Positions 50,747 to 64,000 of a DNA stretch of 64,000 bases are shown one piece after another (position 1 is the first letter of the stretch; every line of letters starts with the position of its first letter). The stretch is from a virus. The stretch lies in the IMG/VR virus record IMGVR_UViG_3300020448_000004, positions 1-64,000 of that record; one strand, written 5' to 3'. The translations under genes and the position numbers were made by a program. The notes below the pieces were generated by a model. That model was given only the letters and a program-made list of their open reading frames with translations, was not told the DNA's origin and did not search any database.

Positions 50747-50805
50747 AGTAATAATGTGGTTTTATGAGAGGGCACTCCTTCTAAGTGGAGATCTTTTGTA
50801 CTCCC

Positions 50806-50937: not shown

Positions 50938-50941
50938 TGGA

Positions 50942-51469: not shown

Positions 51470-51639
51470 TAGAAAGATGCGTCTGAATAGTCTTCTGTTT
51501 TTTCAAAAACAGCAGAGTATGTGAGTTCTTCTTTAAAATAGGATTGATATATCCTACCCCAGATGAGATCAAACTCCTCTTGGTTTAAGTTCTTGAATAA
51601 ACATTCTCCTCTTAGATAGATGTGATAAGTTGGAATCAT
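51469..51639 (-). CDS. Small conserved cyanophage protein (56 aa)
   Basis: It begins MIPTYHIYLRGECLFKNLNQ and continues with EEFDLIWGRIYQSYFKEELT. This resembles a short family of the form PTYHIYxxxxCLFxxLxxEEF that I recall from cyanophage baseplate regions. It is bounded by TAATG overlaps on both sides (1096-aa protein upstream, PAAR downstream), so its reading frame and start are well supported. Function is unknown, possibly a spike or hub assembly factor. Confidence 0.8.
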   Translation of the reverse strand: MIPTYHIYLRGECLFKNLNQEEFDLIWGRIYQSYFKEELTYSAVFEKTEDYSDASF

Positions 51640-54600
51640 TAGTCGAACCTCAAATCACATTCATCGAAGTAAGGGTTTCCGTAGTTGTTCATTGTGTCAT
51701 CTAGTAACTTTGTGCTCGCTGCGGAATAATTACGATAAAGTAATGTACCCTCGTAGGGTCCCATCTCTATATAGTTGTCCGCGTTAACTAAGTTTGGATC
51801 TATGGATATAGCAGCGTGTACTACTTGATACAAAGCACTACACGATTGAAATGGTGAGGAACTGCACAAATCCGCTTGTGAAAGAGCATTTCCACTTCCA
51901 TCATATCCTTTATTGACATCTAGTACTCCATCCGTGACAAAATTATGCCAACACGGATTAGGTAACTTTCCTCCACTACACGCTGCGATTGATGCGTTGT
52001 TATAACCATAACTGAAGTTAGTATTCGCTCCATATCCGCTAACATTGTTTCCTATCCACGTTTGTAGTTGTCCTAACTCCGACATTCCAGATAATCCGTA
52101 ATCAAATGTATTTTCATCACCACCAAGAGGAACAAATGCGTATTGACCTGCGGAAGTCCTGTAACATCTACCCTCCGCATCTCCTTGAAAACAAGGGTGT
52201 GCTTTTATTCCATTAGGTAGGTTTGCAATCTTCCTAGGACGTGTTAATGAGGGTGCAGGTAGTGATTTAAGGAAATTGTTAAAAGCAGTGCTTACAGACG
52301 CTCCTGCACCGCTTACATCGCCTTCTATCTCCATAGATACACGTATCCTTGCAGTCTCTTGTTGACTAGCACAATACTTGTAAGGCATAAACCCAAATAC
52401 TGACTTCTGACCATCAGAATCTAGTGTTACATAAGGACAAGGTATGTCAAAAAACCTTCTTACGTGAAATATGTTTGGTTGTTCCCATTCGTTACAACCT
52501 TGCGGATATAATGACTCCATTCCACCCGTATCTAAGGAAACTTCATCAGATGTTTCGCGGGACATTAACCACATCTGCGATATTTCCGCGTTTCTTTCGT
52601 TAAAGTCTGGTGCATATCTCCGCACACTTGCAAAAGTGGTGTCTGTATCGTAAATATTATTAATATCACTCCATCCAGGTTCAATTTCTAGGTTAATACA
52701 GTTCTTTGGAGTAGATTCACAGTCTTTACTCATCTCTTCTGGGTTAACATCTGGCATATTAATATAACTTGTGATAGTTCCTTCACTTCTAGGTTCATCA
52801 TACTCAGCAATATCTTGACTAAAGTTTGCTAAATTGTCATCTACCTGCTCCTGCATCTCAGGATCTAGTGCTCCAGTCTTTAAAGTTGAGTTATATTGCG
52901 AATCTAACTCTTGAACTTGGTTGTCTGTACCCTTTTCTTCTAGTTGTTCCTCATATCTTTCTGCAACTAATATCTTTGGTTGAGACGAAGGACTATATCC
53001 CGCACCAGGATCTTCAACAATTACGTTTATAATACTACCTTGATCATCTAAAACTGCTCTTAACCGTGCTTGTTTCAATGTTCCCATAAATCCAGACTCA
53101 TTTTTATAGGATTCATTGATGATTGTTGCTGTTCCTTCCTTCTGACTTTGCTCTCCATCCTTAAAATCTGGGTCTTCTATCTCTTTTGACTGTAAATCTA
53201 TACCTGTATCGTTCTTAAATGTCTCTTGACGGAACTTCATAGGGTCTGCAAACCCTTGTTCACGCAATGTTTCTGGAAATTCTATCGCAAGATCGGGATC
53301 TTTGTAGTCTTTTCCGCTATTAATGATGTTAATTGACGCAACTTTTCCTAATTCATCAATTCTTGCCTCTAAAAATGCCTCATCTAGGTTACGATCTGGT
53401 ATAAGTGCACCATCTTTTAGTGAAACTGGTACATAAGATACTCTTTTTGGGAACTCATACACTCCCCAGAACGCTGCTTTGTCCTTTATACCGTATCCTG
53501 CTAGTACATTTATACTCCCACCATTGATTGAAGTAAAAGATTGGTTGTATGTAAACGCATTTCCTGTAGTTTCATTGTTTATTTGGGTCAATTCCATATA
53601 TCCGCAGTTCATTTCATCACCAAAATAGCGACACGCACTAATCATCCAGTTGTTTATACGTTCTCCTATTGCAAAAAACCCAGTACTAGAGGTATATCGG
53701 AAAAATATGCGGTGTTCATCTGTACAAGTTCCCCAAAATGACTCATTTGCACCTACTTGGTTCTGAGGAGCATCAACATATATTCTAGTCTTATGTGTAA
53801 CCCACGCACTCTCCTTTATAGTGTAATTAAAGGTATGATATTCATAAGTAGGTTGAGATGAGTCATCTAGACACGGAGCATCAGTTGTAAGGAAATTTAT
53901 ACCATATACGGGTCCATTCCACGGATATGAGGTATCATAGAGGTAATATACGAATTGTCCCTCAAAAGCATCGTGAAAATTAAGTGATCTTGGCACAGAA
54001 CCCTTTACTGGTCCGTTTTTTCCGTAAAACCACTCATAATATGCTGCTGTACTCAATATTTCTACGTTAGAACCACCCCAACCTGACTGAGATGGGTTAT
54101 CCATTGATTCTAAGTAGTCTCTTAACGCATAATTACCCGCTTCATCCCAATCATACCATCCTGCACGAGAAATTTCCCCAGTATTTCTCGGTCCACCTAA
54201 ATTTTCTATTCTTTTCTTACCTCTTGGACCTGTAGAGGTCATTACATACCCAAAAATGCCCACATATGCGTATTGTTGCTGTCTAGCATCCAAACAATCG
54301 GGAACTCCCGCAACTCCTACCTCTAAATTTACCTCAGTTACGGGATTTATTGTATAAAATGTATCAGGACCACGGTTTACTCCGTTTGGTAACTTATATT
54401 CATACAAAGGAGTTACAGTTTCTCCTCCTTTCAGTAAACCAGATGAGTTAGCAGCACTTTCAGATGTCCAAATGTATCCTAGTAACTCTCCTCCGCTTCC
54501 TGTAGTTAAATATGTGTCATTAGTTACGGAATCATAGTTGCGGTACACAGCAGAAGTACCTGTTTGACTATCTTTCATCAAAGAGAAGTATGCTGCTGAC

Positions 54601-54929
54601 CTTTGACGTGGTTCTCTGTTATAGGAACGGAACTCTTCTTGAGTATCCTCCATAACATCATTCTTTGTATATGCGTGATCACGTTGTTTACCACTATAGT
54701 ATCTAAATATAGTATTTCTCTCTGCATTACAGTTATCTAAACACGTTTCAGTAGGTTCTCCTAGGTAGAATACTTGATCCTTACCAAACTTATACCCACC
54801 AGGACCCACACCTTGAAACGTAATCGTATATCCCGCAGGTACGTTAGTTCCAGTATAGACTTTAGTGTAATCTTCAGAGTCAACAGGGTTCATATAAGAA
54901 CGACCTGTCTCTAGGATCTTAGCGGGCAT
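51639..54929 (-). CDS. Large virion structural protein with DUF5648-like segment (1096 aa)
   Basis: Residues ~70-235 show the DUF5648-like pattern of Tyr/His-rich repeats: FRYYSGKQRDHAYTKND, YRNYDSVTNDTYLTT, LLGYIWTS, PLYEYKLPNG, DTFYTINPVTEVN and YAYVGIFGYVMTS. Two stretches (IDELGKVASINIINSGKDYK and IINVIVEDPGAGYSPSSQPK) are the GxGY-type modules found in other virion proteins here. The C-terminal third is Cys-rich with WEQPNIFHVRRFFDIPCPYV. It probably belongs to the tail tip/baseplate, being upstream of PAAR. It overlaps the upstream gene by 11 nt. Confidence 0.75.
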   Translation of the reverse strand: MPAKILETGRSYMNPVDSEDYTKVYTGTNVPAGYTITFQGVGPGGYKFGKDQVFYLGEPTETCLDNCNAERNTIFRYYSGKQRDHAYTKNDVMEDTQEEFRSYNREPRQRSAAYFSLMKDSQTGTSAVYRNYDSVTNDTYLTTGSGGELLGYIWTSESAANSSGLLKGGETVTPLYEYKLPNGVNRGPDTFYTINPVTEVNLEVGVAGVPDCLDARQQQYAYVGIFGYVMTSTGPRGKKRIENLGGPRNTGEISRAGWYDWDEAGNYALRDYLESMDNPSQSGWGGSNVEILSTAAYYEWFYGKNGPVKGSVPRSLNFHDAFEGQFVYYLYDTSYPWNGPVYGINFLTTDAPCLDDSSQPTYEYHTFNYTIKESAWVTHKTRIYVDAPQNQVGANESFWGTCTDEHRIFFRYTSSTGFFAIGERINNWMISACRYFGDEMNCGYMELTQINNETTGNAFTYNQSFTSINGGSINVLAGYGIKDKAAFWGVYEFPKRVSYVPVSLKDGALIPDRNLDEAFLEARIDELGKVASINIINSGKDYKDPDLAIEFPETLREQGFADPMKFRQETFKNDTGIDLQSKEIEDPDFKDGEQSQKEGTATIINESYKNESGFMGTLKQARLRAVLDDQGSIINVIVEDPGAGYSPSSQPKILVAERYEEQLEEKGTDNQVQELDSQYNSTLKTGALDPEMQEQVDDNLANFSQDIAEYDEPRSEGTITSYINMPDVNPEEMSKDCESTPKNCINLEIEPGWSDINNIYDTDTTFASVRRYAPDFNERNAEISQMWLMSRETSDEVSLDTGGMESLYPQGCNEWEQPNIFHVRRFFDIPCPYVTLDSDGQKSVFGFMPYKYCASQQETARIRVSMEIEGDVSGAGASVSTAFNNFLKSLPAPSLTRPRKIANLPNGIKAHPCFQGDAEGRCYRTSAGQYAFVPLGGDENTFDYGLSGMSELGQLQTWIGNNVSGYGANTNFSYGYNNASIAACSGGKLPNPCWHNFVTDGVLDVNKGYDGSGNALSQADLCSSSPFQSCSALYQVVHAAISIDPNLVNADNYIEMGPYEGTLLYRNYSAASTKLLDDTMNNYGNPYFDECDLRFD

Positions 54930-55203
54930 CCATTTGTGCTAGAGTTTCTTCAATTTTATTTAGTCTGTCAAAAATAGTGTCAAATACCTGTAGTAAATTA
55001 CTATGGTTATCATTTCCTGGGATTTTATACTGTATCATATCTGCACCTCTACTTAAGAATGCTTCTATCTGCTGAGTACGATTGGCAAGGTTAGTAGCAG
55101 TCTTTGCTATCATCTCAAACCTCCACTCGTTCTCCTCTTCTATAGATTTAAACTCAGGTACCTCTATATCTTGAGGTATTACTAGATCTTCTTGGTTTTC
55201 CAT
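54919..55203 (-). CDS. Small helical hypothetical protein (94 aa)
   Basis: The protein is acidic and helical. The core is FKSIEEENEWRFEMIAKTAT and LANRTQQIEAFLSRG; the C-terminal helix is VFDTIFDRLNKIEETLAQMD. It is TAATG-coupled to the oxygenase upstream and overlaps the large structural gene. A chaperone or adaptor for that structural protein is a contextual guess only. Confidence 0.65.
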   Translation of the reverse strand: MENQEDLVIPQDIEVPEFKSIEEENEWRFEMIAKTATNLANRTQQIEAFLSRGADMIQYKIPGNDNHSNLLQVFDTIFDRLNKIEETLAQMDAR

Positions 55204-55739
55204 TAAAAATAATTAAAATTCAATACTACACGGAACTTTTGGTCTGTGCAACTGGTACCTGCGTGAGGTGTATTCACCTTAAATTTTAGCAAACGATTTG
55301 CCTTACTGTCAATTTTAGTACCGTCTTGAAAGTATGTATAACCATTATTGTCATTTAGATAGTATATTGCAGTAGTAGCACCTTCAAACTCATTAGACCC
55401 ATACTCACCACAGTCTGTATGAAAGTCATATTCCTGTAGTCTATCAGTATGATGGTTTAGGTTTGCCTTTATACGTATCAGTGCTCTTGGTTCTAAACGG
55501 TTCACTATAGGTAGTACCTTCTCATATTGAGGTCCTAGAGGTTGTCCTCCTCCATATACGTAGTTTACCATTTGCCAGTTATATATTTCTTTCGCTTGTA
55601 AGTCAGGATCTATCATTCGGGCAACGTGCATTACCTTCGCTTGGTTTACATACCACGGAAAGTCTTGTCCCACGAAGTAATCTCGAACATCCTCAAATTC
55701 GTTCGGGGGGAGGTAGTTATCGATTATTTCAAAGTTCAT
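55203..55739 (-). CDS. Prolyl-4-hydroxylase-like 2OG-Fe(II) oxygenase
   Basis: This protein (about 178 aa) carries the complete metal and cosubstrate signature. FHTD gives His and Asp (107 and 109 counted from the ATG), TPHAG gives the distal His159, and KFRVVLNFNY gives the 2OG-binding Arg170. The N-terminal FEIIDNYLPPNEFEDVRDYF is the usual lead helix. Such enzymes hydroxylate proline or other residues. In T4-like cyanophages they are common in the tail region, with substrate unknown. I chose the ATG at 55739 over the GTG one codon upstream. Confidence 0.85.
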   Translation of the reverse strand: MNFEIIDNYLPPNEFEDVRDYFVGQDFPWYVNQAKVMHVARMIDPDLQAKEIYNWQMVNYVYGGGQPLGPQYEKVLPIVNRLEPRALIRIKANLNHHTDRLQEYDFHTDCGEYGSNEFEGATTAIYYLNDNNGYTYFQDGTKIDSKANRLLKFKVNTPHAGTSCTDQKFRVVLNFNYF

Positions 55740-55809
55740 CACGATTTCAGAATAGTTACGACGTTCGCGGGGGTAACGTTTCTAGCGTCAGACCCCTCTA
55801 TATGCCCCT

Positions 55810-55974
55810 CTAATGGTTACATTCGTAGTTCTCGTTGTATCTCTTCACACTAGGTGCTATTTTATCCAATAAATCCTCAACATCTTCATATGTCTCAGTT
55901 TGATAAGTCGCTAAGGACTTCTGGTATAATTCTAAGGCATTATAGATCAATGCCATCTCTTTTCTGTTAAACAT
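55810..55974 (-). CDS. Small hypothetical protein (54 aa)
   Basis: The sequence starts MFNRKEMALIYNALELYQKS and is helical and acidic, with YEDVEDLLDKIAPSVKRYNE near the C-terminus. Its start overlaps the preceding gene by 8 nt. About 70 nt without a gene follow before the oxygenase start. No family is recognised. Confidence 0.65.
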   Translation of the reverse strand: MFNRKEMALIYNALELYQKSLATYQTETYEDVEDLLDKIAPSVKRYNENYECNH

Positions 55975-56128
55975 CTGCTCTAGTGATGATTAGTTTGTCG
56001 TCTATAATGTCATATTGTAGCATATCCCCCACTGTTAACGCAAGTTCTTCAACGATCTGATCGGGTATTTTAAAAGTCATTTCACCGTAGTCATCTTCCT
56101 CAATGGAAACTAGAAATCGTTTACTCAT
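55967..56128 (-). CDS. AbrB/MazE-like small DNA-binding protein candidate (53 aa)
   Basis: The segment FKIPDQIVEELALTVGDMLQ followed by YDIIDDKLIITR follows the swapped-hairpin AbrB/MazE pattern (IPxxIxExLxLxxGDxLxxxxxDxxIIIxR). Proteins with this fold bind DNA as dimers or act as antitoxins. No toxin partner is visible next to it, so a phage regulator is more likely than a toxin-antitoxin pair. It overlaps both neighbours by 8 nt. Confidence 0.6.
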   Translation of the reverse strand: MSKRFLVSIEEDDYGEMTFKIPDQIVEELALTVGDMLQYDIIDDKLIITRADV

Positions 56129-56549
56129 TCTTTCGTAAAATATAGCGTATCAATGGTATATAGGATTCTATGTATTCTACGTTACTAACATACGCATACT
56201 TGTGTTGAAGTATAAACCCATCACCCAAATATACTGCTGCGTGTTTGATTTTATCACTACCAAATGAGAAACATATCACATCATTCTTTTTCATTATATC
56301 CTTATACCAATCTGTACCATCCCACTCTCCTTCATCCTTCTGAAAGATAATTCCCCATCCTTCTTTCTCTATATCCTCTATTTTATACTCTTTAACTGTA
56401 AGAGAGTAGTCCTGAGAGAACTCCTGTACTCCAGTATCCTTCATATAGTCGTATATTAGCGTAAAGCACCCTCCACCTCTCTGTTGTTTCCAAGGGCGAC
56501 CTAACCAAGGGGAGTAATCTTCTTCGTACTTTTTTAGCAAATGGTCCAT
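56121..56549 (-). CDS. NlpC/P60-like cell-wall peptidase
   Basis: The 142-residue protein has the layout of NlpC/P60 cysteine peptidases. The nucleophile Cys28 is in GGGCFTLIYDYM at the start of a helix. NDVICFSFG (89-97) forms the central strand, and KHAAVYLGDGFILQHK contains the catalytic His103 and a second His116. Related enzymes in T4-like cyanophages are thought to cut host peptidoglycan cross-links at infection or lysis. It is the first late-half gene after the 183-nt non-coding stretch. Confidence 0.8.
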   Translation of the reverse strand: MDHLLKKYEEDYSPWLGRPWKQQRGGGCFTLIYDYMKDTGVQEFSQDYSLTVKEYKIEDIEKEGWGIIFQKDEGEWDGTDWYKDIMKKNDVICFSFGSDKIKHAAVYLGDGFILQHKYAYVSNVEYIESYIPLIRYILRKNE

Positions 56550-56732
56550 ACGTAAAATTTTTTTGGGATTTTTTTTATATATCAGGGTACCTTAAATGCG
56601 ATTTCGATAATATATCAAACCCTATACTTTTGTAGGTTAGTCAAAAAAGATTTTTTTAATATGCCAGTTTGTAAAGTGGCACAAGGCGAAAATGATAATC
56701 GTTTTCATTCTCACCTGTATCACCTCTGAGAC
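56550..56732. other. Non-coding junction between early-type and late-type halves
   Basis: No convincing gene in either strand. On the minus strand it holds the 19-bp palindrome at 56688-56706, a weak TGCCA-N10-TGGCA inverted repeat at about 56663-56682, A/T tracts, and TTGACT near 56636-56641 without a well-spaced -10. It is the longest gene-free stretch adjoining the late genes. Confidence 0.6.
56688..56706. promoter_or_regulatory. 19-bp palindromic operator, Fur-box-like
   Basis: GAAAATGATAATCGTTTTC is an inverted repeat around its central base, with nine pairs of which one is G-T. It matches the Fur consensus GATAATGATAATCATTATC at 16 of 19 positions. It lies 27 nt before the end of the upstream gene and about 140 nt before the NlpC gene. 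An operator for a host or phage repressor is plausible; chance in AT-rich DNA is not excluded. Confidence 0.4.
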
Positions 56733-57149
56733 TTAACGCTTACTTAGTGCGGTTAAAAAATCTTCGGATAACCAAATTAAATTGCCACCGTCAATTTTTT
56801 CTCTAACTTCTACCCATACCACATTTTTTTTATCAAGTGATCCAATAATGCCCTTAACAACATTTTTAGATACTACGTTATCTCTATTAAGGTATGCGTG
56901 AATTTCGTCAAAGTCTGTTAAAATTTCGTTAGGGTCTAAGTCTCCATAATAAAAACCGTACTCTTTAGACTCTGCAATTATTCCGTCAAGTGCAAAGAAA
57001 CTTAGGAAATTCTTTTCTAACTCAGTAAGGTTAGTTGCTTTACTTACTTCTTTATTGAAATAATCTTTTATCTCTATAGTTCCCTCTAATAGTGGGGAAG
57101 TTTCCATTTTGTTGTATGTTGCTACAGAATTTGCGAATTGAGTAGTCAT
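56733..57149 (-). CDS. Hypothetical protein with winged-helix-like C-terminus (138 aa)
   Basis: No family is recognised with certainty. The N-terminal part is hydrophilic, and residues 45-70 (LEKNFLSFFALDGIIAESKE) form helices. The C-terminal half, YLNRDNVVSKNVVKGIIGSL, DKKNVVWVEVREKI and GGNLIWLSEDF, has the helix-turn-helix then beta-wing pattern of a winged helix. A small early transcription regulator is possible. It is monocistronic, with its own TATAAT promoter and AACAACACTA leader upstream and the non-coding junction downstream. Confidence 0.65.
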   Translation of the reverse strand: MTTQFANSVATYNKMETSPLLEGTIEIKDYFNKEVSKATNLTELEKNFLSFFALDGIIAESKEYGFYYGDLDPNEILTDFDEIHAYLNRDNVVSKNVVKGIIGSLDKKNVVWVEVREKIDGGNLIWLSEDFLTALSKR

Positions 57150-57160
57150 AGAGGGTTGCT

Positions 57161-57205
57161 TAGTGTTGTTATATTAATTATAGCGAATAATTCCGTATAG
57201 TGTGA
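57161..57205 (-). promoter_or_regulatory. Early promoter with AACAACACTA leader
   Basis: On the minus strand TATAAT (57177-57182) is followed after 6 nt by AACAACACTA (57161-57170), placing that motif at the predicted 5-prime end of the mRNA. The -35 is weak (CACACT region). There is no Shine-Dalgarno before the ATG at 57149. Confidence 0.6.
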
Positions 57206-57368
57206 ATAAACTCCAATATATGTTAAGTTGCAGTTATTATGACAATTTGTAACAGAATAGGTAGAAAAAAAATCCGTTTCGTGCTAACTTCCTAAGACTA
57301 CAATTAACTAGAGATATAAAATTATAAACTATATTTATTTTAACCTTTTTAATATATACTAAATTTAT
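57206..57368. other. AT-rich gene-free stretch
   Basis: No gene seen between the early promoter and the HNH gene end. It contains AATAAATA (57332-57339, minus), which resembles a late promoter but has no start within 180 nt. Confidence 0.5.
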
Positions 57369-57734
57369 TCATTTATACCGTAAGTTTTTAAAATGATCGT
57401 TTACTTTGTTTCCGTCAATATGCCTAACTTGTTTATTTTCGATAGTGGTTTTTAGTCCACTTTCTGAAGTCTCCGCACTTAAAAATGCACTTGCTACTAA
57501 CCTCGCAATTCTTCTTACTACTGTCTTACCGTTATATCTCAAAGTCACTCTCTTGTAACCGTTTTCATTAATATGAGTTTGTAATTTTTTCCACTTTCCC
57601 CACTTAGTAGAGAATACTTCCCCACTTTCATTTATATAATAATCTTCATACAATGGTAGAGGTTTATAGATGATTCCGCTATCGTCTAGGAAAGTTTCCG
57701 CATCTACTTTTTTAAATGTGTAAATAGTCATCAT
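57369..57734 (-). CDS. NUMOD4/HNH-type endonuclease
   Basis: The 121-residue protein combines a NUMOD4-like part (LYEDYYINESGEVFSTKWG at 29-47, then LQTHINENGYKRVTLRYNG) with an HNH_3-like end, VRHIDGNKVNDHFKNLRY (103-120). HNH nucleases nick DNA and are often mobile (homing) genes in phages. The protein stops right after NLRY, lacking the usual tail. The His normally seen in vHrLVA is Arg here (VRRIARLVASAF), so activity is uncertain. It is preceded by the ArdA terminator, lacks the AACAACACTA leader of its neighbours, and may be an insertion. Confidence 0.75.
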   Translation of the reverse strand: MMTIYTFKKVDAETFLDDSGIIYKPLPLYEDYYINESGEVFSTKWGKWKKLQTHINENGYKRVTLRYNGKTVVRRIARLVASAFLSAETSESGLKTTIENKQVRHIDGNKVNDHFKNLRYK

Positions 57735-57747
57735 TTTAAAGGATAAT

Positions 57748-57776
57748 AAAAAAAGGGACTTGTTAATAGTCCCTTT
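57748..57776 (-). terminator. Rho-independent terminator after the ArdA-like gene
   Basis: On the minus strand AAAGGGACT-ATTAACA-AGTCCCTTT forms a perfect 9-bp stem with a 7-nt loop, running into a T7 tract. It lies about 33 nt after the stop at 57809 and just before the HNH gene. Confidence 0.85.
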
Positions 57777-57808
57777 ATATATAAGATTAATTAATGCCCT
57801 TTTTTAAC

Positions 57809-58348
57809 TTAAAAGTTGCTAAAAATGTGATTATCCCATTCGCAATAGTCATAACTTAGTGAATGATTCCATATTTTATCATAGTCAATACAGTTTTCTA
57901 TCCAGTAAGGTAAAGAGTTAGAGATATAACCACATTCTGAGATTAATTCCTCTGTAAATTCTGCTCCGCTGTCATATCTCCCTCTATAACTATCTTCTAA
58001 GTGCATTAAGTCGTTTATTGAAAAAAGATTAATAAATGCTTCAATAATCTCATCTACTGGACTATTGTAATATCTTAATTCTGAACATACATTTTCGTAT
58101 GTGTCAATTTCGTCAATAGCGTCATCTATATCTAAGTTGAAAGTCTCTTGAAATTCTTGAATTTCGTCAAGTCTCTCTATTCCCTCATCAAGTGCAATTT
58201 CTGTAACTTTAGTAAATTCTACTCCATAATCAGTAGAAAATTCTAAACTACGGTCAACAATAGCATTAAGTTCTAATACTCTTGATTTTCTTAGGTCAGC
58301 ATTGATTTTGTCTAGTCTAGTTTGCTGAGAGTTAGATAAAGTTTGCAT
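57809..58348 (-). CDS. ardA: ArdA-like antirestriction protein (DNA mimic)
   Basis: ArdA proteins mimic bent B-DNA and block type I restriction enzymes. The C-terminal ~75 residues (105-179) follow the ArdA pattern. EDSYRGRYDSGAEFTEELIS and ECGYISNSLPYWIE are followed by NCIDYDKIWNH, then YDYCEWDNHIF. This parallels the AYxGxYDSxEDFAxEL...LPxYxDYxAxxxDL...YxExDGHVF consensus. The protein is strongly acidic throughout, with a helical Asp/Glu-rich N-terminus (QEFQETFNLDIDDAIDEIDT). It is monocistronic, with a strong promoter upstream and a terminator downstream, consistent with immediate-early expression as DNA enters. Confidence 0.8.
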   Translation of the reverse strand: MQTLSNSQQTRLDKINADLRKSRVLELNAIVDRSLEFSTDYGVEFTKVTEIALDEGIERLDEIQEFQETFNLDIDDAIDEIDTYENVCSELRYYNSPVDEIIEAFINLFSINDLMHLEDSYRGRYDSGAEFTEELISECGYISNSLPYWIENCIDYDKIWNHSLSYDYCEWDNHIFSNF

Positions 58349-58356
58349 TTTGGGAT

Positions 58357-58402
58357 TAGTGTTGTTAAATTAATTGTACCATACTTTTTTGATATATGGC
58401 AA
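58357..58402 (-). promoter_or_regulatory. Early sigma70-type promoter for ardA
   Basis: TTGCCA (-35, 58397-58402), an 18-nt spacer and TACAAT (-10, 58373-58378) lie on the minus strand. After 6 nt comes AACAACACTA (58357-58366), then the start at 58348 without a Shine-Dalgarno. Confidence 0.75.
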
Positions 58403-58426
58403 GAAAAAAGAGAATTTAATATTCTC

Positions 58427-58669
58427 TTAATATTCGCTCCATTGTCTCAAATATGAGTTAATTTCTGCTAAAGTGCAAGAATATTTGTATTCAGCACCAT
58501 TACCAGTAATAAATCTTCCAAAACTATTAGTAAGTGCTAACTCATATAATCCGTCATTTTCAAAATAAAGGATAGATGCACCAAAACTATTATTAGGGAA
58601 ATTAATTTTACTTACTTTAGTGTTTGGGATATTTCCCTTTTCTGTAGCGTAAGGATAAAACTCGAACAT
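58427..58669 (-). CDS. Hypothetical protein (80 aa)
   Basis: Not recognised. The small protein is beta-rich, with SKINFPNNSFGASILYFEND, then GLYELALTN and a C-terminal helix (LAEINSYLRQWSEY). It has its own promoter/leader and a terminator upstream of that, so it is probably transcribed alone before ardA. Confidence 0.65.
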   Translation of the reverse strand: MFEFYPYATEKGNIPNTKVSKINFPNNSFGASILYFENDGLYELALTNSFGRFITGNGAEYKYSCTLAEINSYLRQWSEY

Positions 58670-58677
58670 AGTGTAAT

Positions 58678-58740
58678 TAGTGTTGTTAATACTATGATAA
58701 CATAAATTTTACATTATGTGAGTTTTGAATTGTTAAGAAA
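58678..58740 (-). promoter_or_regulatory. Early promoter with distal TTTCTTAACAATTC element
   Basis: The minus strand carries TTTCTTAACAATTC (58727-58740), then TATGTTAT (58697-58704) overlapping -10 TATCAT (58694-58699). After 6 nt comes AACAACACTA (58678-58687). The same element set recurs before three other genes. Confidence 0.6.
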
Positions 58741-58751
58741 TAATAAAGCAT

Positions 58752-58784
58752 AAAAAAAAGGTTAGAGTTCCCAATTCTAACCTT
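58752..58784 (-). terminator. Rho-independent terminator
   Basis: The minus strand reads AAGGTTAGA, a 9-nt loop and TCTAACCTT, followed by a T8 tract. The 9-bp stem is perfect. It ends the unit containing the 144-aa gene and the possible 34-aa peptide. Confidence 0.85.
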
Positions 58785-58800
58785 AAATATAGGAAACAAC

Positions 58801-58905
58801 TTAGTATTCTAAGTTATTAATTTTTAATTTATTATTTGAACTAACAATATTAACCATAGTGTGAGATATGATTAATATTACTGGACTTACAATAAAAGTG
58901 AACAC
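58801..58905 (-). CDS. Possible 34-aa membrane peptide (GTG start)
   Basis: This frame runs from a GTG, 25 nt after the 144-aa gene, to a TAA just before the terminator. The N-terminus is hydrophobic (FTFIVSPVILIISH) and the tail polar. There is no clear Shine-Dalgarno; an internal ATG preceded by CACACT would give only 18 aa. Weakly supported. Confidence 0.3.
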   Translation of the reverse strand: MFTFIVSPVILIISHTMVNIVSSNNKLKINNLEY

Positions 58906-58930
58906 TAAAAACTTTTAAATGCCAGTTACC

Positions 58931-59365
58931 TTAAACTGGTAGTGGGTAGAATCCGTTAGTGTTGAAATAGTCAATATCTGAAATAGTTAAATGCTTTTCA
59001 AATACTTTCATACCTTCATAAAATTGAATCTCAGCACCAGTAAGTGTATCAATAACTACCCATTGCTTTTTTACTTGCTTTATATAAACTCTATCCTTAG
59101 TTAATTCGCTAAGAATAGCGTTTAATCTCTCTTTAGTTGTTTTAGTTCTAAATCCGCCATTATACAATTTAACTGACCTATAACCAAAATGTGTATGGTC
59201 AATTTCTGCTATAACAGTATCGTAGAATTTTACGTCAACAATATTTGAACCGTCTTGTCTAGTAATAACTTCAGTATTACCTAGTCCAGTTCCTTTTGTG
59301 TTGCACTTCATCATAGCGAAAATTGCTGATGTAGTACTGGGTTTTGAAAAAGTCAAAGTTGGCAT
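58931..59365 (-). CDS. Conserved-type phage hypothetical protein (144 aa)
   Basis: The middle section, HFGYRSVKLYNGGFRTKTTK followed by ERLNAIL, matches a pattern common in small phage proteins (strand, GGxxTxTTKxRLN helix) whose function I do not know. KQWVVIDTLTGAEIQFYEGM follows, resembling a small beta unit. It is the first gene after a promoter of the TTTCTTAACAATTC/TATGTTAT type and its unit ends in a strong terminator. Confidence 0.7.
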   Translation of the reverse strand: MPTLTFSKPSTTSAIFAMMKCNTKGTGLGNTEVITRQDGSNIVDVKFYDTVIAEIDHTHFGYRSVKLYNGGFRTKTTKERLNAILSELTKDRVYIKQVKKQWVVIDTLTGAEIQFYEGMKVFEKHLTISDIDYFNTNGFYPLPV

Positions 59366-59373
59366 TTTGAAAA

Positions 59374-59441
59374 AGTGTTTTTTGCTTATGTACCTATATT
59401 AACATAACATATAGGTTAGTGTGGATTGAATTGTTAAGAAA
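59374..59441 (-). promoter_or_regulatory. Early promoter with distal TTTCTTAACAATTC element
   Basis: On the minus strand TTTCTTAACAATTC (59428-59441) is followed by TATGTTAT (59404-59411) and TAATAT (59396-59401). An AAAAAACACT leader (from 59374) precedes the start at 59365. The -10 assignment is uncertain between the two AT elements. Confidence 0.55.
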
Positions 59442-59443
59442 AT

Positions 59444-59575
59444 CTAAAATCTTTTTTTCTTAGAATCTCTTATCATTTTATTAAACTTTTTACTTTCTTT
59501 TGGGGTCATACCACAAAAATAGTTTAATAAGTTGCCTTCATATTGATCGGCAAGTTCAAGTAACTCTTTATCCAT
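59444..59575 (-). CDS. Small hypothetical protein (43 aa)
   Basis: It starts MDKELLELADQYEGNLLNYF and ends in a basic tail (KKFNKMIRDSKKKRF). The start overlaps the preceding stop as TAATG. A distal promoter element follows right after its stop. Function is unknown. Confidence 0.65.
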   Translation of the reverse strand: MDKELLELADQYEGNLLNYFCGMTPKESKKFNKMIRDSKKKRF

Positions 59576-59679
59576 TATTTTCTATCCTTATTAATAGCGT
59601 GGTAGTCTAGGTTAGTTGCAATCGCTTTACCAGTTATGAATAAAGCATAACAACCGCCTATGAGAATGAATAATTCCAT
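59575..59679 (-). CDS. Tiny membrane peptide (34 aa)
   Basis: MELFILIGGCYALFITGKAI is a hydrophobic segment; a short polar tail ATNLDYHAINKDRK follows. TAATG overlaps on both sides support the frame. A single membrane span is likely. Function is unknown. Confidence 0.6.
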   Translation of the reverse strand: MELFILIGGCYALFITGKAIATNLDYHAINKDRK

Positions 59680-59813
59680 TAGTGAATACCTCTAAGTAAG
59701 TTTTTACTGTTGTTAAACTGATCTATAAGAATCTCAGTTTTAGCGTTTTGTTTCGCTATTTCCTTATCTGCAAATTTGATAAGTCTATGAAGCATTTTTA
59801 AATCCTTATCCAT
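59679..59813 (-). CDS. Small helical hypothetical protein (44 aa)
   Basis: I start it at MDKDLKMLHRLIKFADKEIA, where an ACCAACACTATGG leader precedes the ATG. An upstream in-frame extension of 19 residues would overlap the promoter. The protein is one long basic helix. First gene of a three-gene TAATG-coupled unit. Confidence 0.65.
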   Translation of the reverse strand: MDKDLKMLHRLIKFADKEIAKQNAKTEILIDQFNNSKNLLRGIH

Positions 59814-59827
59814 AGTGTTGGTTAAGT

Positions 59828-59877
59828 TAGTGTTGTTTGTATATAACCAATATAAGGGATAATTAAACATAATGCAA
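59828..59877 (-). promoter_or_regulatory. Early sigma70-type promoter
   Basis: TTGCAT (-35, 59872-59877), a 17-nt spacer and TATATT (-10, 59849-59854) lie on the minus strand. AACAACACTA (59828-59837) lies downstream and a second AACACTA abuts the ATG at 59813. Confidence 0.7.
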
Positions 59878-59892
59878 TAGGAAATCCGATTC

Positions 59893-60135
59893 TTAACATT
59901 TTTTTAACAATTCATCTTTTCCTCTTTGAATATATCCCTTTTTGTATGATTCGATACTAATTTCGCTTAAATTCTCTATTTCTTCCCTAGTTAAACCCGA
60001 TTCTTCAAAAATTAGTGCATTATCACTAAATTCCATTAATGTTTCAAGTACTTCCTCAAAAGTAAAATCTCTATTAATTGCATTTTCCCCAAATGCAATT
60101 TCAAAAACTTCCTCAATAAATTGTTTTTGGTTCAT
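59893..60135 (-). CDS. Acidic helical hypothetical protein (80 aa)
   Basis: Glu-rich and helical throughout: FIEEVFEIAFGENAINRDFT, FEEVLETLMEFSDNALIFEE and LTREEIENLSEISIESY. There is no motif I recognise. The acidity could suit a DNA-mimic or protein-binding inhibitor, which is speculation. Last gene of a four-gene coupled unit, joined to the gene upstream by TAATG. Confidence 0.65.
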   Translation of the reverse strand: MNQKQFIEEVFEIAFGENAINRDFTFEEVLETLMEFSDNALIFEESGLTREEIENLSEISIESYKKGYIQRGKDELLKKC

Positions 60136-60359
60136 TACTTAGAATCCTCCATAACTTCGCTAGTATCTTGAATTGTAAACTCATAATCTACATTATCATT
60201 AATATCAACATAATTGCAATCGAAAAAACTTTCAAATTGACAATTAGTTAAAATATTATCTTTTAGATAATAAAATGTTATGTTATCATCAGGATTACAC
60301 GTTGATTTTTCATAATCAACAAATAAACCCAATTCTTTAATTAGTTGCTTGATTTTCAC
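60135..60359 (-). CDS. Acidic hypothetical protein (74 aa, GTG start)
   Basis: MKIKQLIKELGLFVDYEKST begins the protein, followed by an Asp/Asn-rich beta part with Cys at CQFESFFDCNYVDINDNVDY. The GTG start overlaps the preceding TGA stop (GTGA), a coupling that supports the non-ATG start. Function is unknown. Confidence 0.65.
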   Translation of the reverse strand: MKIKQLIKELGLFVDYEKSTCNPDDNITFYYLKDNILTNCQFESFFDCNYVDINDNVDYEFTIQDTSEVMEDSK

Positions 60360-60493
60360 TTGATTAACTCCTTATGTAATTTGATTAAAATGTCAGAATT
60401 AACATCAAGAATTTCATTTTTCTTGTCATCATTTTCTGAATAATGAAAGTTTAAACACTCTATCATATAGAGTAACTCTTTTTGTGTAAACAT
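60356..60493 (-). CDS. Small hypothetical protein (45 aa)
   Basis: MFTQKELLYMIECLNFHYSE is followed by a polar helix ending KLHKELIK. It is coupled to the upstream gene by TAATG and to the downstream gene by a 4-nt overlap. Function is unknown. Confidence 0.65.
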   Translation of the reverse strand: MFTQKELLYMIECLNFHYSENDDKKNEILDVNSDILIKLHKELIK

Positions 60494-60702
60494 TATACAA
60501 TTCCCTCCTCTATTAATCCCATTATGTTGCCTGTTTCATCAATTATTTCCCCAGTTTTGTTATCTCTAACACAACTGTATTCATAATCACAACCAAATTC
60601 AAAGGATAAATCCTTTGCTTTTTCTAAATCATCAGTATATACCTCTGAATCGAAAAGTCTAGGTGTTTCAACTGTGTATTTGAAATTGAATGGATTTGAC
60701 AT
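60493..60702 (-). CDS. Small hypothetical protein (69 aa)
   Basis: Short alpha/beta protein: MSNPFNFKYTVETPRLFDSE, then YTDDLEKAKDLSFEFGCDYE and YSCVRDNKTGEIIDETG. The last part resembles a strand-turn-strand ending found in several tiny phage proteins (VRDxxTGEIID). It is the first gene of the four-gene unit, with AACAACACTA and no Shine-Dalgarno upstream. Confidence 0.7.
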   Translation of the reverse strand: MSNPFNFKYTVETPRLFDSEVYTDDLEKAKDLSFEFGCDYEYSCVRDNKTGEIIDETGNIMGLIEEGIV

Positions 60703-60708
60703 TTTTTT

Positions 60709-60778
60709 TAGTGTTGTTTGTTTATAATTTATTATTGCATATATTTCTAGTATATGTCAATAATGAAATATTAAGAAA
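60709..60778 (-). promoter_or_regulatory. Early sigma70-type promoter
   Basis: A perfect TTGACA -35 (60755-60760), 17-nt spacer and CAATAA -10 (60732-60737) lie on the minus strand, with AACAACACTA at 60709-60718. A degenerate form of the distal element (TTTCTTAATATTTC, 60765-60778) lies upstream. Confidence 0.75.
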
Positions 60779-60781
60779 TAA

Positions 60782-61009
60782 TTAAGGATTTTCCCATTTA
60801 ATTTTCTTTTCTGAATTTGCTATATCAAAACAGATTTCGCAAAGACAATCAGCATCAGGGAAGTGATCTCGCCAATCGTATTTTTCTTGTAATGGATAAT
60901 CCCAATAGTAATAGAGATCAGGTTGATAATCTGGGTCATTTTTGAACATATCAATTTCGCCATCAATATGTTCATCATTAAAATTTCCACACTTATCGCA
61001 ATATGACAT
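60782..61009 (-). CDS. Zinc-ribbon-like CxxC protein (75 aa)
   Basis: Two Cys pairs, CDKC (residues 4-7) and CLCEIC (near 55-60), frame a Tyr/Asp/Trp-rich middle (DYQPDLYYYWDYPLQEKYDW). Four cysteines are thus available for one zinc ion. Small zinc ribbons in early phage regions often bind host polymerase or nucleic acid; that is inference here. TAATG-coupled to the upstream gene. Confidence 0.7.
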   Translation of the reverse strand: MSYCDKCGNFNDEHIDGEIDMFKNDPDYQPDLYYYWDYPLQEKYDWRDHFPDADCLCEICFDIANSEKKIKWENP

Positions 61010-61263
61010 TATGCAACCCCCATTTTTGTTAATGTTTGATTAGTTGCTCTACGCTCTATAACAAAATCTCTTACTCTCTCTCTATCAAGAGAATCGCCAC
61101 CACCCCAAGTAACGTGAGTTCCAACTTCGCATAGGTCAAGATAGTTTAAAGTTGCAAGTGCTAACTCTTCCCTAGTTAAACCGTCAATAGGGTAAAGTAC
61201 ATCAGGGTGATTAGGTGAATAGAATGATTCACAATAATCAAGAAATTCTTTAAAGTTGTCCAT
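61009..61263 (-). CDS. Hypothetical protein (84 aa)
   Basis: I start at MDNFKEFLDYCESFYSPNHP because AAAAAACACT directly precedes that ATG as in neighbouring genes; a 9-residue upstream extension is possible but would run into the promoter. The core, GLTREELALATLNYLDLCEV followed by THVTWGGGDSLDRERVRDFV, is alpha/beta with a Gly-rich turn. Function is unknown. Confidence 0.65.
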   Translation of the reverse strand: MDNFKEFLDYCESFYSPNHPDVLYPIDGLTREELALATLNYLDLCEVGTHVTWGGGDSLDRERVRDFVIERRATNQTLTKMGVA

Positions 61264-61332
61264 AGTGTTTTTTGTATATGAATCCATCATAACATAAAAT
61301 AATGAATAATGGATATTTGAATTGTTAAGAAA
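61263..61332 (-). promoter_or_regulatory. Early promoter with distal TTTCTTAACAATTC element
   Basis: On the minus strand TTTCTTAACAATTC (61319-61332) is followed by TATGTTAT (61289-61296) overlapping TATGAT (61286-61291). AAAAACACTA runs into the ATG at 61263. Confidence 0.6.
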
Positions 61333-61335
61333 TTA

Positions 61336-61551
61336 TTAAATTGATAATGATAGTTGAGTATCAGCGAAAATTTCTTCTTCAATGTCCTCTATAACTTCAT
61401 TGAATTCGCCAAAATCTTCAGTATAATCTGACCAACCATAATCGCCACTTTCATAGATTTCTTTAGCGTGGTTCTTACTTTTTGCTTCAAAAGTGTAAGT
61501 TCCATATTTTTCAAATTTTACATTGATGTAATATCTTTTTAATTGATTCAT
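61336..61551 (-). CDS. DpnD/PcfM-like small protein candidate (71 aa)
   Basis: The arrangement is a strand, YYINVKFEKYGTYTFEAKSK, then the helix NHAKEIYESGDYG and a second acidic strand (FGEFNEVIEDIEEEIFADT). It resembles the short xVEAxSxEEAxxxV family that includes DpnD/PcfM-like proteins. Function is unknown. It lies 4 nt after the stop of the preceding gene. Confidence 0.6.
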   Translation of the reverse strand: MNQLKRYYINVKFEKYGTYTFEAKSKNHAKEIYESGDYGWSDYTEDFGEFNEVIEDIEEEIFADTQLSLSI

Positions 61552-61555
61552 TTTT

Positions 61556-61819
61556 TTAACCCTTTGCTTCTAGTTTTTGTTGGAATGCAATTCTATCCCT
61601 TTCTTCGGGTGTAGTCATTCTCTCAGGGTCATATTGAGCGTTATATGCTCCTTGAAAGTCAAATCCTAGCATACCGTCAACGATTTCCTGTAACTCGTCA
61701 ATATCTGTTTCAAATTGACTAAACCAAAAATCTTGATTCATAATGTGTAAGGACTCATTTTCCTTACGATAGTTTTCTAGGTCAGTTTGGAACTGTTCTA
61801 AAATTTTTTCAAAATCCAT
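61556..61819 (-). CDS. Acidic helical hypothetical protein (87 aa)
   Basis: MDFEKILEQFQTDLENYRKE starts a long acidic helix. Then come FWFSQFETDIDELQEIVDGM and a C-terminal TTPEERDRIAFQQKLEAKG. No family is recognised. First gene of a two-gene unit; TAAAACACT precedes the ATG and there is no Shine-Dalgarno. Confidence 0.65.
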   Translation of the reverse strand: MDFEKILEQFQTDLENYRKENESLHIMNQDFWFSQFETDIDELQEIVDGMLGFDFQGAYNAQYDPERMTTPEERDRIAFQQKLEAKG

Positions 61820-61889
61820 AGTGTTTTATGTGTGTTATATCCATATTACCATAACATAGTGAATAATGGATATGTGAATTGTTAAGAAA
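61819..61889 (-). promoter_or_regulatory. Early promoter with distal TTTCTTAACAATTC element
   Basis: On the minus strand TTTCTTAACAATTC (61876-61889) is followed by TATGTTAT (61851-61858) and GGTAATATGG. A TAAAACACTA leader runs into the ATG at 61819. Confidence 0.6.
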
Positions 61890-61897
61890 TTATTAAA

Positions 61898-62182
61898 TTA
61901 ATAATTGCAAGTAGCAAAGGAATAAGATTTGCATAAATCAAATATTTGTGAAGTCAAATCCTCTAATTCACTTTCCCAATTTTCATTTTTATCTGAAATT
62001 TCTACTTTACTGAGTGCTATATGTTGACATTCATACCATAAGAATTGATCTGTGTCATATCCTACAATTTCAAGAATGTCATTACCATATTCTGCATAAC
62101 AATTAGGATAATATTCTTTAATATGATCTATTAATTCTGTTTCCCAATTATCAAATTGTGTTGTTTCAGTTTTAGTTTCCAT
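61898..62182 (-). CDS. Acidic hypothetical protein (94 aa)
   Basis: The start METKTETTQFDNWETELIDH has a GAGG Shine-Dalgarno nine bases upstream; a longer frame lies wholly within the upstream gene. Cys-containing YYPNCYAEYGNDILEIVGYD and LCKSYSFATCNY at the end stand out. Acidic overall; no family recognised. It overlaps the upstream gene by 11 nt. Confidence 0.65.
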   Translation of the reverse strand: METKTETTQFDNWETELIDHIKEYYPNCYAEYGNDILEIVGYDTDQFLWYECQHIALSKVEISDKNENWESELEDLTSQIFDLCKSYSFATCNY

Positions 62183-62321
62183 TGTGATAAACCTCGTAGT
62201 GTTGAATTGTGTCAAATGTTTCAATTTGATGATCGTTTAACTCAAAGTCCATATCTCTGAGTATATCATACAATTTAACCATATTGTAAATTTGATCGTT
62301 TGTCAATGGTATATTAATCAT
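62172..62321 (-). CDS. Small hypothetical protein (49 aa)
   Basis: MINIPLTNDQIYNMVKLYDI is followed by LRDMDFELNDHQIETFDTIQ. An AAGGA Shine-Dalgarno precedes the ATG. It overlaps the upstream gene by 8 nt and the downstream gene by 11 nt. Function is unknown. Confidence 0.6.
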   Translation of the reverse strand: MINIPLTNDQIYNMVKLYDILRDMDFELNDHQIETFDTIQHYEVYHNGN

Positions 62322-62529
62322 TTTCCTTACCTCGCATTGAATCGTCAAATTTGTAATATGTGTATAACCACTCGAAATTTTCTGTTAATGGTTCATTACC
62401 ATCTACAACAAATTCCTCAAATAATGCTCTTGAGTCCTCCATACGGTTCTCATCAACTGCTTTAATAGTTGATTTCATTATTGTGTCAATACAAACATCA
62501 ATAGATTTATCTAGTGATTCTGTTTTCAT
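62314..62529 (-). CDS. Small acidic hypothetical protein (71 aa)
   Basis: I start at MKTESLDKSIDVCIDTIMKS, with GAGGA upstream; a TTG five codons earlier is unlikely. The C-terminus FEWLYTYYKFDDSMRGKEND is aromatic and acidic. Its start is one base after the preceding stop. Function is unknown. Confidence 0.6.
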   Translation of the reverse strand: MKTESLDKSIDVCIDTIMKSTIKAVDENRMEDSRALFEEFVVDGNEPLTENFEWLYTYYKFDDSMRGKEND

Positions 62530-62530
62530 T

Positions 62531-62698
62531 TTAAAAATCCTCAACTGTTAAATTGTTTACTGCATCAAATACTTTATCTTCCATTGAGTCAAATGTATCT
62601 GTGTCATATAAATCACTTCTATATTTTACCGTTTTAGGGTGGCATAATAATTGAGTGAGTGATTGATGCTCTTCGATTGATAGTTTGATTATAGGCAT
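62531..62698 (-). CDS. Small hypothetical protein (55 aa)
   Basis: It begins MPIIKLSIEEHQSLTQLLCH and continues with Asp-rich YRSDLYDTDTFDSMEDKVFD. GGAGG-like sequence (GGTAGGAGG) upstream serves as Shine-Dalgarno. It overlaps the upstream gene by 10 nt. The IxLSxEEHxxLxxLL start resembles the 77-aa protein further upstream, hinting at a duplicated family. Confidence 0.6.
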   Translation of the reverse strand: MPIIKLSIEEHQSLTQLLCHPKTVKYRSDLYDTDTFDSMEDKVFDAVNNLTVEDF

Positions 62699-62859
62699 AA
62701 GTCCTCGAACCTCCTACCAACGATAGCATCTATAGATACAAAGTCAAGATCGGACTCTTTAACATTGTTGAATCCTTCTTTTCTTAGATTTTCGAGTGAC
62801 TCTGCAACAACTTCATCATAAAGTGTTTCTAAGATTGACTCGTGATGTAAAACTGACAT
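62689..62859 (-). CDS. Small acidic hypothetical protein (56 aa)
   Basis: MSVLHHESILETLYDEVVAE leads into SLENLRKEGFNNVKESDLDF and a C-terminal VGRRFEDLCL. First gene of a five-gene overlapping unit; CAAAACACTATT precedes the ATG. Function is unknown. Confidence 0.65.
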   Translation of the reverse strand: MSVLHHESILETLYDEVVAESLENLRKEGFNNVKESDLDFVSIDAIVGRRFEDLCL

Positions 62860-62861
62860 AA

Positions 62862-62911
62862 TAGTGTTTTGTTTCTTGATTTAATATTAAACGATAATGT
62901 GACTATTTCAA
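62862..62911 (-). promoter_or_regulatory. Early sigma70-type promoter
   Basis: TTGAAA (-35, 62906-62911, within the last codons of the upstream gene), a 16-nt spacer and TAATAT (-10, 62884-62889) lie on the minus strand. CAAAACACTA follows at 62862-62871. Confidence 0.65.
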
Positions 62912-63136
62912 GTTTGGTAGTGCCACTTCGTTAACTGTCATAGCATAGAACACTTTTTCAAATGTTGCTTTGCTATCTTTTAATTTGTTCTTTTTGTACC
63001 ATACTCTATACATATCAACGGTATTTGATGTATCATTACCTTTTGTTTCATTATTATAGAATGTAAAAAAGAACATCATAGAGTCAATTAAAATCTGTTG
63101 CTCTGTTTCATTTAATGTTATGTTAAATTGTTTCAT
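62903..63136 (-). CDS. Small hypothetical protein (77 aa)
   Basis: MKQFNITLNETEQQILIDSM is followed by an aromatic segment MFFFTFYNN and basic RVWYKKNKLKDSKATFEKVF. The N-terminal strand plus ExxxL helix resembles small NxTLNxxEQQxL phage proteins whose role is unknown. It starts 2 nt after the upstream stop. Confidence 0.65.
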   Translation of the reverse strand: MKQFNITLNETEQQILIDSMMFFFTFYNNETKGNDTSNTVDMYRVWYKKNKLKDSKATFEKVFYAMTVNEVALPNLK

Positions 63137-63138
63137 AA

Positions 63139-63477
63139 TTACATATAGAATGAAGTAGGTCTTTTAGAAATTTTATTATGATCTTTTCTTTTCATTCTTA
63201 GAACCTCGAAATCTCTATCAATACCAAATGCTGATTCACTAGGTATTGGAAATGTAGTTTTACGTTGCTCTTTAGATAACTCTAGTTCATTTTCTGTTAA
63301 CCATTGATCGTTAATGAGTTCTTGAACCTTTCTAAATGCTCCTACAACTGCATCTTTACCGTATCGGTCAAATGCTAGTCCAGTTGGTGCATTATTCTCG
63401 TCTAGGTCACAATAACAATAACCTAGTCTATTTGCGACTAAACCTAGTTCTCTTGCTGTTAAATTAAGTTGATACAT
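63139..63477 (-). CDS. Hypothetical protein (112 aa)
   Basis: The N-terminal LNLTARELGLVANRLGYCYC echoes the start of its downstream neighbour. GKDAVVGAFRKVQELINDQW and a basic C-terminus (RMKRKDHNKISKRPTSFYM) follow. No family is recognised. It has its own TATAAT promoter. Confidence 0.65.
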   Translation of the reverse strand: MYQLNLTARELGLVANRLGYCYCDLDENNAPTGLAFDRYGKDAVVGAFRKVQELINDQWLTENELELSKEQRKTTFPIPSESAFGIDRDFEVLRMKRKDHNKISKRPTSFYM

Positions 63478-63478
63478 T

Positions 63479-63549
63479 TTAGTGATGTGGGTTGTAGTAG
63501 TTTAACAATAACATTATAACAAATATAATTACTATAAATGTTAAGAAAA
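63479..63549 (-). promoter_or_regulatory. Early promoter, extended -10
   Basis: TTGTTATAATG (TATAAT at 63513-63518) lies on the minus strand. A degenerate distal TTTTCTTAACATTTA (63536-63549) lies upstream and a variant leader, CATCACTA, before the start at 63477. Confidence 0.6.
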
Positions 63550-63798
63550 TCATAAGATTTTTTCCTCCATTTTGTTGTCAATTAAATAAGCAATAAAATC
63601 ATTCCATTCTGACCAATCTTGATCGTAAACTTGATAACAAATGTCTTTGATAAATTCCTCATCAATTTTTGTTGTATCCCATTCTTCCCTATCGTATGTG
63701 TCAATAACAGATAATACATCTGATTTTATGTCAACATAGTCCATAGCAAATTGCATAGGATTAGGGCAACTGTTTAACCAGTTTTCATAGGTCATCAT
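63550..63798 (-). CDS. Acidic hypothetical protein (82 aa)
   Basis: It starts MMTYENWLNSCPNPMQFAMD, with an Asp/Glu/Trp-rich rest (DTYDREEWDTTKIDEEFIKD, then DQDWSEWNDFIAYL). The ATGATGA junction with the upstream gene allows a start at either Met. Function is unknown. Confidence 0.65.
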   Translation of the reverse strand: MMTYENWLNSCPNPMQFAMDYVDIKSDVLSVIDTYDREEWDTTKIDEEFIKDICYQVYDQDWSEWNDFIAYLIDNKMEEKIL

Positions 63799-63959
63799 TT
63801 TTCGATCTCCAAAGAGTCAATAAAGGCAACACAATATTCAGTAAATTTCTTTACATCAATAGGTGCTACTTTGTCATCTTCTTCTCCAATATAATAAAAT
63901 TGGTTATTGGTGTTTGAAATGAATGTTTCAAGTGCTATTTCGTTTTTGGTGTAACTCAT
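63795..63959 (-). CDS. Small acidic hypothetical protein (54 aa)
   Basis: MSYTKNEIALETFISNTNNQ is followed by FYYIGEEDDKVAPIDVKKFT and a C-terminal helix. It starts right after ACAACACTACT and overlaps the downstream gene. Function is unknown. Confidence 0.65.
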   Translation of the reverse strand: MSYTKNEIALETFISNTNNQFYYIGEEDDKVAPIDVKKFTEYCVAFIDSLEIEK

Positions 63960-63961
63960 AG

Positions 63962-64000
63962 TAGTGTTGTAACTGATTTAATATTAATACTATTATGTGT
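63962..64000 (-). promoter_or_regulatory. Early promoter, cut by window edge
   Basis: TACAACACTA (63962-63971) and AT-rich -10 candidates (TAATAT, 63981-63986) lie on the minus strand. The -35 may lie beyond the window. Confidence 0.45.

Follow-up and report, generated by a model that had tools for sequence, protein, structure and literature searches.

What does one short word, repeated letter for letter in front of several small genes, do in a phage genome? The question is raised by the IMG/VR virus record IMGVR_UViG_3300020448_000004 (90,579 bases), of which positions 1 to 64,000 (a stretch of 64,000 nucleotides, nt) are henceforth called the window. Its genes and their order, among them baseplate-type proteins and a region of small genes, together with matches to named phages, mark the record as a T4-like marine cyanophage of the Kyanoviridae. 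The 14-mer TTTCTTAACAATTC stands at 58727–58740, 59428–59441, 61319–61332 and 61876–61889, always on the minus strand, which is also the coding strand, within a minus-strand region of small genes of mostly unassigned function. An original prediction, made from the letters alone, had taken these copies for a phage-specific promoter class with an activator or UP-like site. Our analysis leads to a related answer, namely that the 14-mer is probably an upstream element, at about −53 to −40, in five promoters of the sigma70 type with an extended −10, which would serve small early-type genes in one Kyanoviridae lineage and belong to modules exchanged by recombination.

The repetition itself is clear. 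The four exact copies, all upstream of genes, are the only ones in the whole record, where the reversed pattern does not occur at all, and any other 14-mer present four times merely overlaps TTTCTTAACAATTC. Shuffling the three pieces of the record by dinucleotides 300 times gave two sequences with a single copy and none with more. With up to three mismatches allowed there was no enrichment (22 found in the window against 19.1 expected), and the signal is therefore confined to exact or defined-variant copies. One such variant, TTTCTTAATATTTC, accounts for one of the two degenerate copies that had been proposed, near 60765, where it is kept in two relatives (L007 and L008); the same second form also occupies the 58727 position in three relatives, and the consensus across the element sites is TTTCTTAAYAWTTC. 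The other proposed degenerate copy, near 63536, was rejected as a promoter and is coding sequence, because it falls within a reading frame of 24 codons (MIFLTFIVIIFVIMLLLNYYNPHH and a stop) with a similar peptide in phage P-TIM40. That frame (63479–63553, minus strand), too small for the list of open reading frames, encodes a membrane-like peptide of 24 residues ending in NPHH. Also set aside were an exact plus-strand 14-mer in L008 and a one-mismatch form at 59900, which are codons for the C-terminal end of a gene, read in the opposite sense.

The element keeps a fixed relationship to a −10 sequence. In all 15 copies from the window, L007, L008 and L022, a TGN-extended −10 starts 26–28 nt after the element, with a spacer that differs between sites. 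Within the window, and throughout on the minus strand, the pairs are the element at 58727..58740 with TGT-TATCAT at 58694..58702 (27 nt), that at 59428..59441 with TGT-TAATAT at 59396..59404 (26 nt), the second-form element at 60765..60778 with TGC-AATAAT at 60731..60739 (28 nt), that at 61319..61332 with TGT-TATGAT at 61286..61294 (27 nt) and that at 61876..61889 with TGG-TAATAT at 61843..61851 (27 nt). Placing the −10 hexamer at −12, this distance puts the element at about −53 to −40. Despite flanks that are unrelated to each other, the sites 58727, 59428 and 60765 retain both the element and its spacing to the −10. The original prediction had also seen TATGTTAT following each exact 14-mer after 16–23 nt. 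It is indeed present, but it does not stand as an element of its own: its distance is not fixed, since it overlaps the extended −10 in two registers, and at 59428 it is not conserved in L007 and L008 although the extended −10 is kept there.

These promoters would be poorly provided with a −35. A consensus −35 is found at one of the five sites (TTGACA at 60755–60760, minus strand, in the 60765 promoter). Elsewhere a −35 of the T4 early type (close to TTGACA, at 16–18 nt) was not found, the 58727 site having CTCACA and the extended −10s of the other three remaining unpaired in the promoter scan. The TTAACA inside the 14-mer was considered as a −35 and discarded, given that no consistent −10 lies at 16–18 nt and that the scan pairs it only at 61328 (9/12). 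None of the elements is followed within 60 nt by the late-promoter motif TATAAATA. A clean contrast with plain sigma70 promoters, as had been drawn before, is not supported, because by their motifs these appear to be sigma70-type extended −10 promoters themselves, and the others of the cluster include a different type, described below.

How widely is the element distributed? None of 18 named phage genomes (11 in a first set and 7 in a second that included T4 and Ma-LMM01) matches the degenerate consensus exactly, and a search of IMG/VR for the element core plus extended −10 returned 56 stretches where the reversed pattern gave 51, i.e. at chance outside L007 and L008, each of which contributed two hits. 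The 14-mer therefore belongs to one small lineage. Inside it, the copies at 59428, 60765 and 61319 are identical in L007 and L008, while that at 61876 reads TTTCTTTATAATTC in L007 and is replaced in L008 by a promoter with another element. The idea of a phage-specific promoter class thus survives in part, through the lineage-specific set, its absence from the named genomes, the fixed geometry, the position at about −53 to −40 and the exchange with the other element; the roles given to TATGTTAT and to the 63536 copy fall away.

That other element is a dyad, TGTGMCA-N10-TGKCACA, found in the gaps before early-region genes of named cyanophages. With up to two mismatches, 125 sites were counted in 22 records against four control hits (13 of 15 records in a first set gave 82 sites and 5 of 7 in a further set gave 43, with two control hits in each set). 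The gap list used for its discovery came from annotation tables and covered the records other than L017 and L019; a strict first pattern had given few sites and a free hairpin search had mixed true sites with chance repeats. At the same tolerance there were none in T4, Ma-LMM01, P-RSM6, Melnitz or the whole record of L017, and one in P-TIM68. P-RSM6 has one diverged version of the same 24 + 29 geometry. P-TIM68 (L012), where the dyad is nearly absent, has a different block, TAAATGTTAGNTACCNNTAAATTGA, repeated ten times on the coding strand before small genes (positions 2479, 6722, 6968, 7478, 7948, 8396, 9064, 9505, 10156 and 11380).

The dyad too keeps its distance to the −10. From its end to the best −10 we found 28, 29 and 30 nt in 4, 31 and 8 of 60 cases, together 43 where 7.6 were expected in the range of 26–32, in a set that includes orthologous copies from related records, leaves out L019 (mixed gene strands) and L017 (dyad-free) and was scored with a picker that overlooked TAATAT hexamers in the lineage of the window. 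Among independent loci, the dyads used for fetching excluded, 33.6 of 80 strand instances fell at 28–30 nt against 2.25 in shuffled sequence, a count that takes each dyad on both strands so that at most about half can face a promoter. At least 120 IMG/VR stretches contain the combined exact pattern of dyad and −10. In the record that holds the window, dyads belong to promoters adjoining the 14-mer block (62919, 65418, 66128 and 66824, record positions), the nearest occupying 62919..62942 on the minus strand with TAATAT 29 nt downstream. A hexamer lies 29–30 nt from four of the record's five dyads, the fifth (56660) being without a clear −10 at that distance. In four other records (L009, 5100–5179; L014, 2315–2593; L015, 5406–5456; L018, 3590–3667) a terminator-like hairpin behind the dyad has its T-run ending at the extended −10, and we read these loci as putative compact terminator-promoter units.

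An RNA hairpin with covarying arms was considered for the dyad and rejected. The half-sites vary almost independently, the position 5 combinations being A-T 16, C-G 16, A-G 17, C-T 7 and T-G 1, which fits a protein site better, and Rfam gave no match in 50000–64000. From its position and spread, the dyad may be the main early or middle operator of the Kyanoviridae. Phages of one host, NATL2A, differ in it (P-TIM40 has 8 copies, P-SSM4 has 6 and P-RSM6 has 0), and among 80 listed of 99 genome stretches with an exact dyad, none was named Prochlorococcus or marine Synechococcus, in a collection where we estimate about 60 chance hits. Control of the dyad by the host is for these reasons less likely. 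A contig filed in a Flavobacteriales metagenome bin, NHFO01000063.1 (L145, L178), has five exact dyads and may be a misbinned cyanophage.

The two elements meet at one gene. In L008 the orthologue of gene 61556–61819, whose protein is 87% identical, is preceded by a dyad promoter in which TAATAT follows the dyad after 29 nt; the gene upstream of it is unrelated to that of the window, whereas the window and L007 have in common both this upstream gene and the 14-mer-type promoter. The edge of the exchange lies at the promoter leader. The 14-mer and the dyad can therefore substitute for each other, moving with the neighbouring gene. A second promoter exchange was seen in L022 at gene 58348, whose promoter there resembles that of 58669.

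How might such an element work? Either the C-terminal domain of the RNA polymerase alpha subunit, in the manner of an UP element, or an activator would bind the 14-mer, and the bound element would compensate for the weak −35 of the extended −10 promoter. The 14-mer occupies the place that the dyad has in most related cyanophages, and gene-plus-promoter modules with either element would be swapped by recombination in this gene-shuffling region. One word at a fixed distance in this lineage, and other words at the same place in its relatives, suggest an exchangeable control site through which phage genes are turned on. A broader scenario, to which we hold only tentatively, is that a phage-encoded activator on the dyad (centred near −53 and replacing the −35) switches the early promoters of Kyanoviridae, and that in the window's lineage a 14-mer read by another factor took over at five promoters, with the geometry constant, and spread by module exchange.

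Several observations weigh against the 14-mer as a bound promoter element. Scored against the Escherichia coli UP consensus, the five sites reach 8, 10, 6, 9 and 9 of 14, a modest match beside the gap mean of 6.5, given that 26% of the gaps reach 8. The 61319 and 61876 sites share their flanks, with about 45 nt in common, which leaves four independent contexts instead of five. The relatives are about 88–95% identical over the region, so that conservation of the element alone cannot be told apart from general similarity, and the element before gene 61819 is altered at two positions in L007. The shared flanks also suit an explanation by duplication or homogenisation of promoter segments through recombination alone, in which the 14-mer binds nothing. 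So does the 58727 site: just inside and next to the element, the window has letters unlike those of three relatives and closer to the form of the other sites, as expected of gene conversion. The L022 promoter and the module exchanged in L008 suit it as well. Such segments would resemble cassettes in which an early promoter is joined to a terminator stem-loop (PeSL cassettes), reportedly described in T4-type phages by Arbiol in 2010 and Comeau in 2014. What is shared with PeSLs is early promoters in a gene-shuffling region and one gene-plus-promoter exchange; here, though, a hairpin with a U-run accompanies one of the four exact 14-mers and the repeated part is the upstream element. Duplication would have to leave element and −10 distance intact between the unrelated flanks of 58727, 59428 and 60765, and recombination by itself does not explain why an unrelated dyad keeps an equal distance to the −10. 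We consider this explanation unlikely.

To a site for a host regulator such as PhoB, borrowed by the phage, we give little credence. The Pho box pattern CTTA-N7-CTTA, as used in PMC3037559, is matched in full at 60765 and with a single mismatch at three more sites, but this makes one exact match in five window sites and none in ten sites of the relatives, where 60765 reads ATTA, and among 40 coding-strand CTTA words in the cluster, 7 carry an upstream half that departs from the pattern in no more than one letter. The NtcA pattern GTA-N8-TAC is found at none of the five sites. Hardly more than a formal alternative, finally, is a 3′-end signal of the upstream gene, i.e. a terminator or RNA-processing site. 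It would draw on the position directly behind the preceding stop codon, already pointed out in the original prediction, which holds at three of the four exact sites (gaps of 2, 3 and 8 nt) and fails at 58727, where the annotated stop is about 190 nt off and a terminator-like hairpin with a U-run (58758..58784, minus strand; −9.3 kcal/mol, z −2.56) lies between, just upstream of the element. The 14-mer is moreover not self-complementary, it keeps a constant distance from the −10 and not from the stop codon, and the lack of an Rfam match in 50000–64000 applies here as well.

An upstream promoter element thus remains our preferred reading, and it can be set beside the promoters known from T4 (described in PMC2988021). 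The T4 early promoters resemble ours in their TGn-extended −10 and in having an upstream region where an UP element would lie (PMC2988021), but they have general A/T tracts in place of a specific 14-mer, a consensus −35 is found here at one of five sites only, and homologues of Alt and ModA are missing in cyanomyoviruses (PMC2984593). The T4 middle promoters likewise combine a phage-specific motif upstream of the −10 with the lack of a good −35; their MotA box, however, is centred at −30 (PMC2988021) and the 14-mer near −46, so that these sites do not qualify as MotA boxes, and cyanomyoviruses are without motA and asiA homologues (PMC2984593). The closest likeness is to the dyad, which has the same place relative to the −10, precedes the same kind of gene and is interchangeable with the 14-mer at one gene, but consists of two half-sites and is family-wide where the 14-mer is one asymmetric, lineage-restricted word.

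A review from 2010 called early and middle transcription control in cyanomyoviruses unclear and gives alt, modA, motA and asiA homologues as missing (PMC2984593). Sites for sigma70, late, Pho and NtcA control have been searched for (PMC3037559), and the region upstream of psbA has been examined (PMC5931967). Ma-LMM01 was found to have sigma70-like motifs and no phage-specific ones (PMC5780444), PeSLs have been discussed and are few in S-PM2 (PMC4503421), and Melnitz is reported to have no identifiable middle promoters (PMC9004378). Neither the 14-mer nor the dyad was found described in the portions of literature searched, a scope that does not take in the Syn9 transcriptome (Doron 2016) or Arbiol 2010 and Comeau 2014, so that novelty is not established.

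The genes behind the five putative promoters, all on the minus strand, are small. From the 58727 promoter onwards they are 58427..58669 (80 amino acids, without family match), 58931..59365 (144 amino acids, Kyano_Gp96 family, PF23790, E 2.8e-12), 60493..60702 (69 amino acids, phrog_25733, unknown function), 61009..61263 (phrog_7799, conserved in many Kyanoviridae as T4-GC 82) and 61556..61819 (87 amino acids, without family match). For the phrog_7799 gene the ATG at 61263 fits the leader, the starts at 61275 and 59816 used in scans being approximate. The same small-gene region has an anti-restriction (ArdA-like) protein at 57809–58348 (minus strand; phrog_36653, E 1.3e-14, with Pfam ArdA below cut-off). 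Within 60 nt before 9 of the 13 listed minus-strand gene starts in 56549–63959 of the window (10 of 13 with the start at 61263) there is an AACAC, frequently 6–18 nt from the ATG, against 13% of all 60-nt windows; it is possibly a translation or leader signal replacing the Shine-Dalgarno sequence.

Taken alone, the 14-mer is, as far as sequence can tell, a modest, lineage-bound promoter element. Together with a family-wide dyad at one and the same place, it offers a testable lead on transcription control in cyanophages. The fixed position of the element provides a DNA bait and a reporter design for finding the missing factor, and the exchange at one gene shows that a promoter with one type of element can take the place of a promoter with the other.

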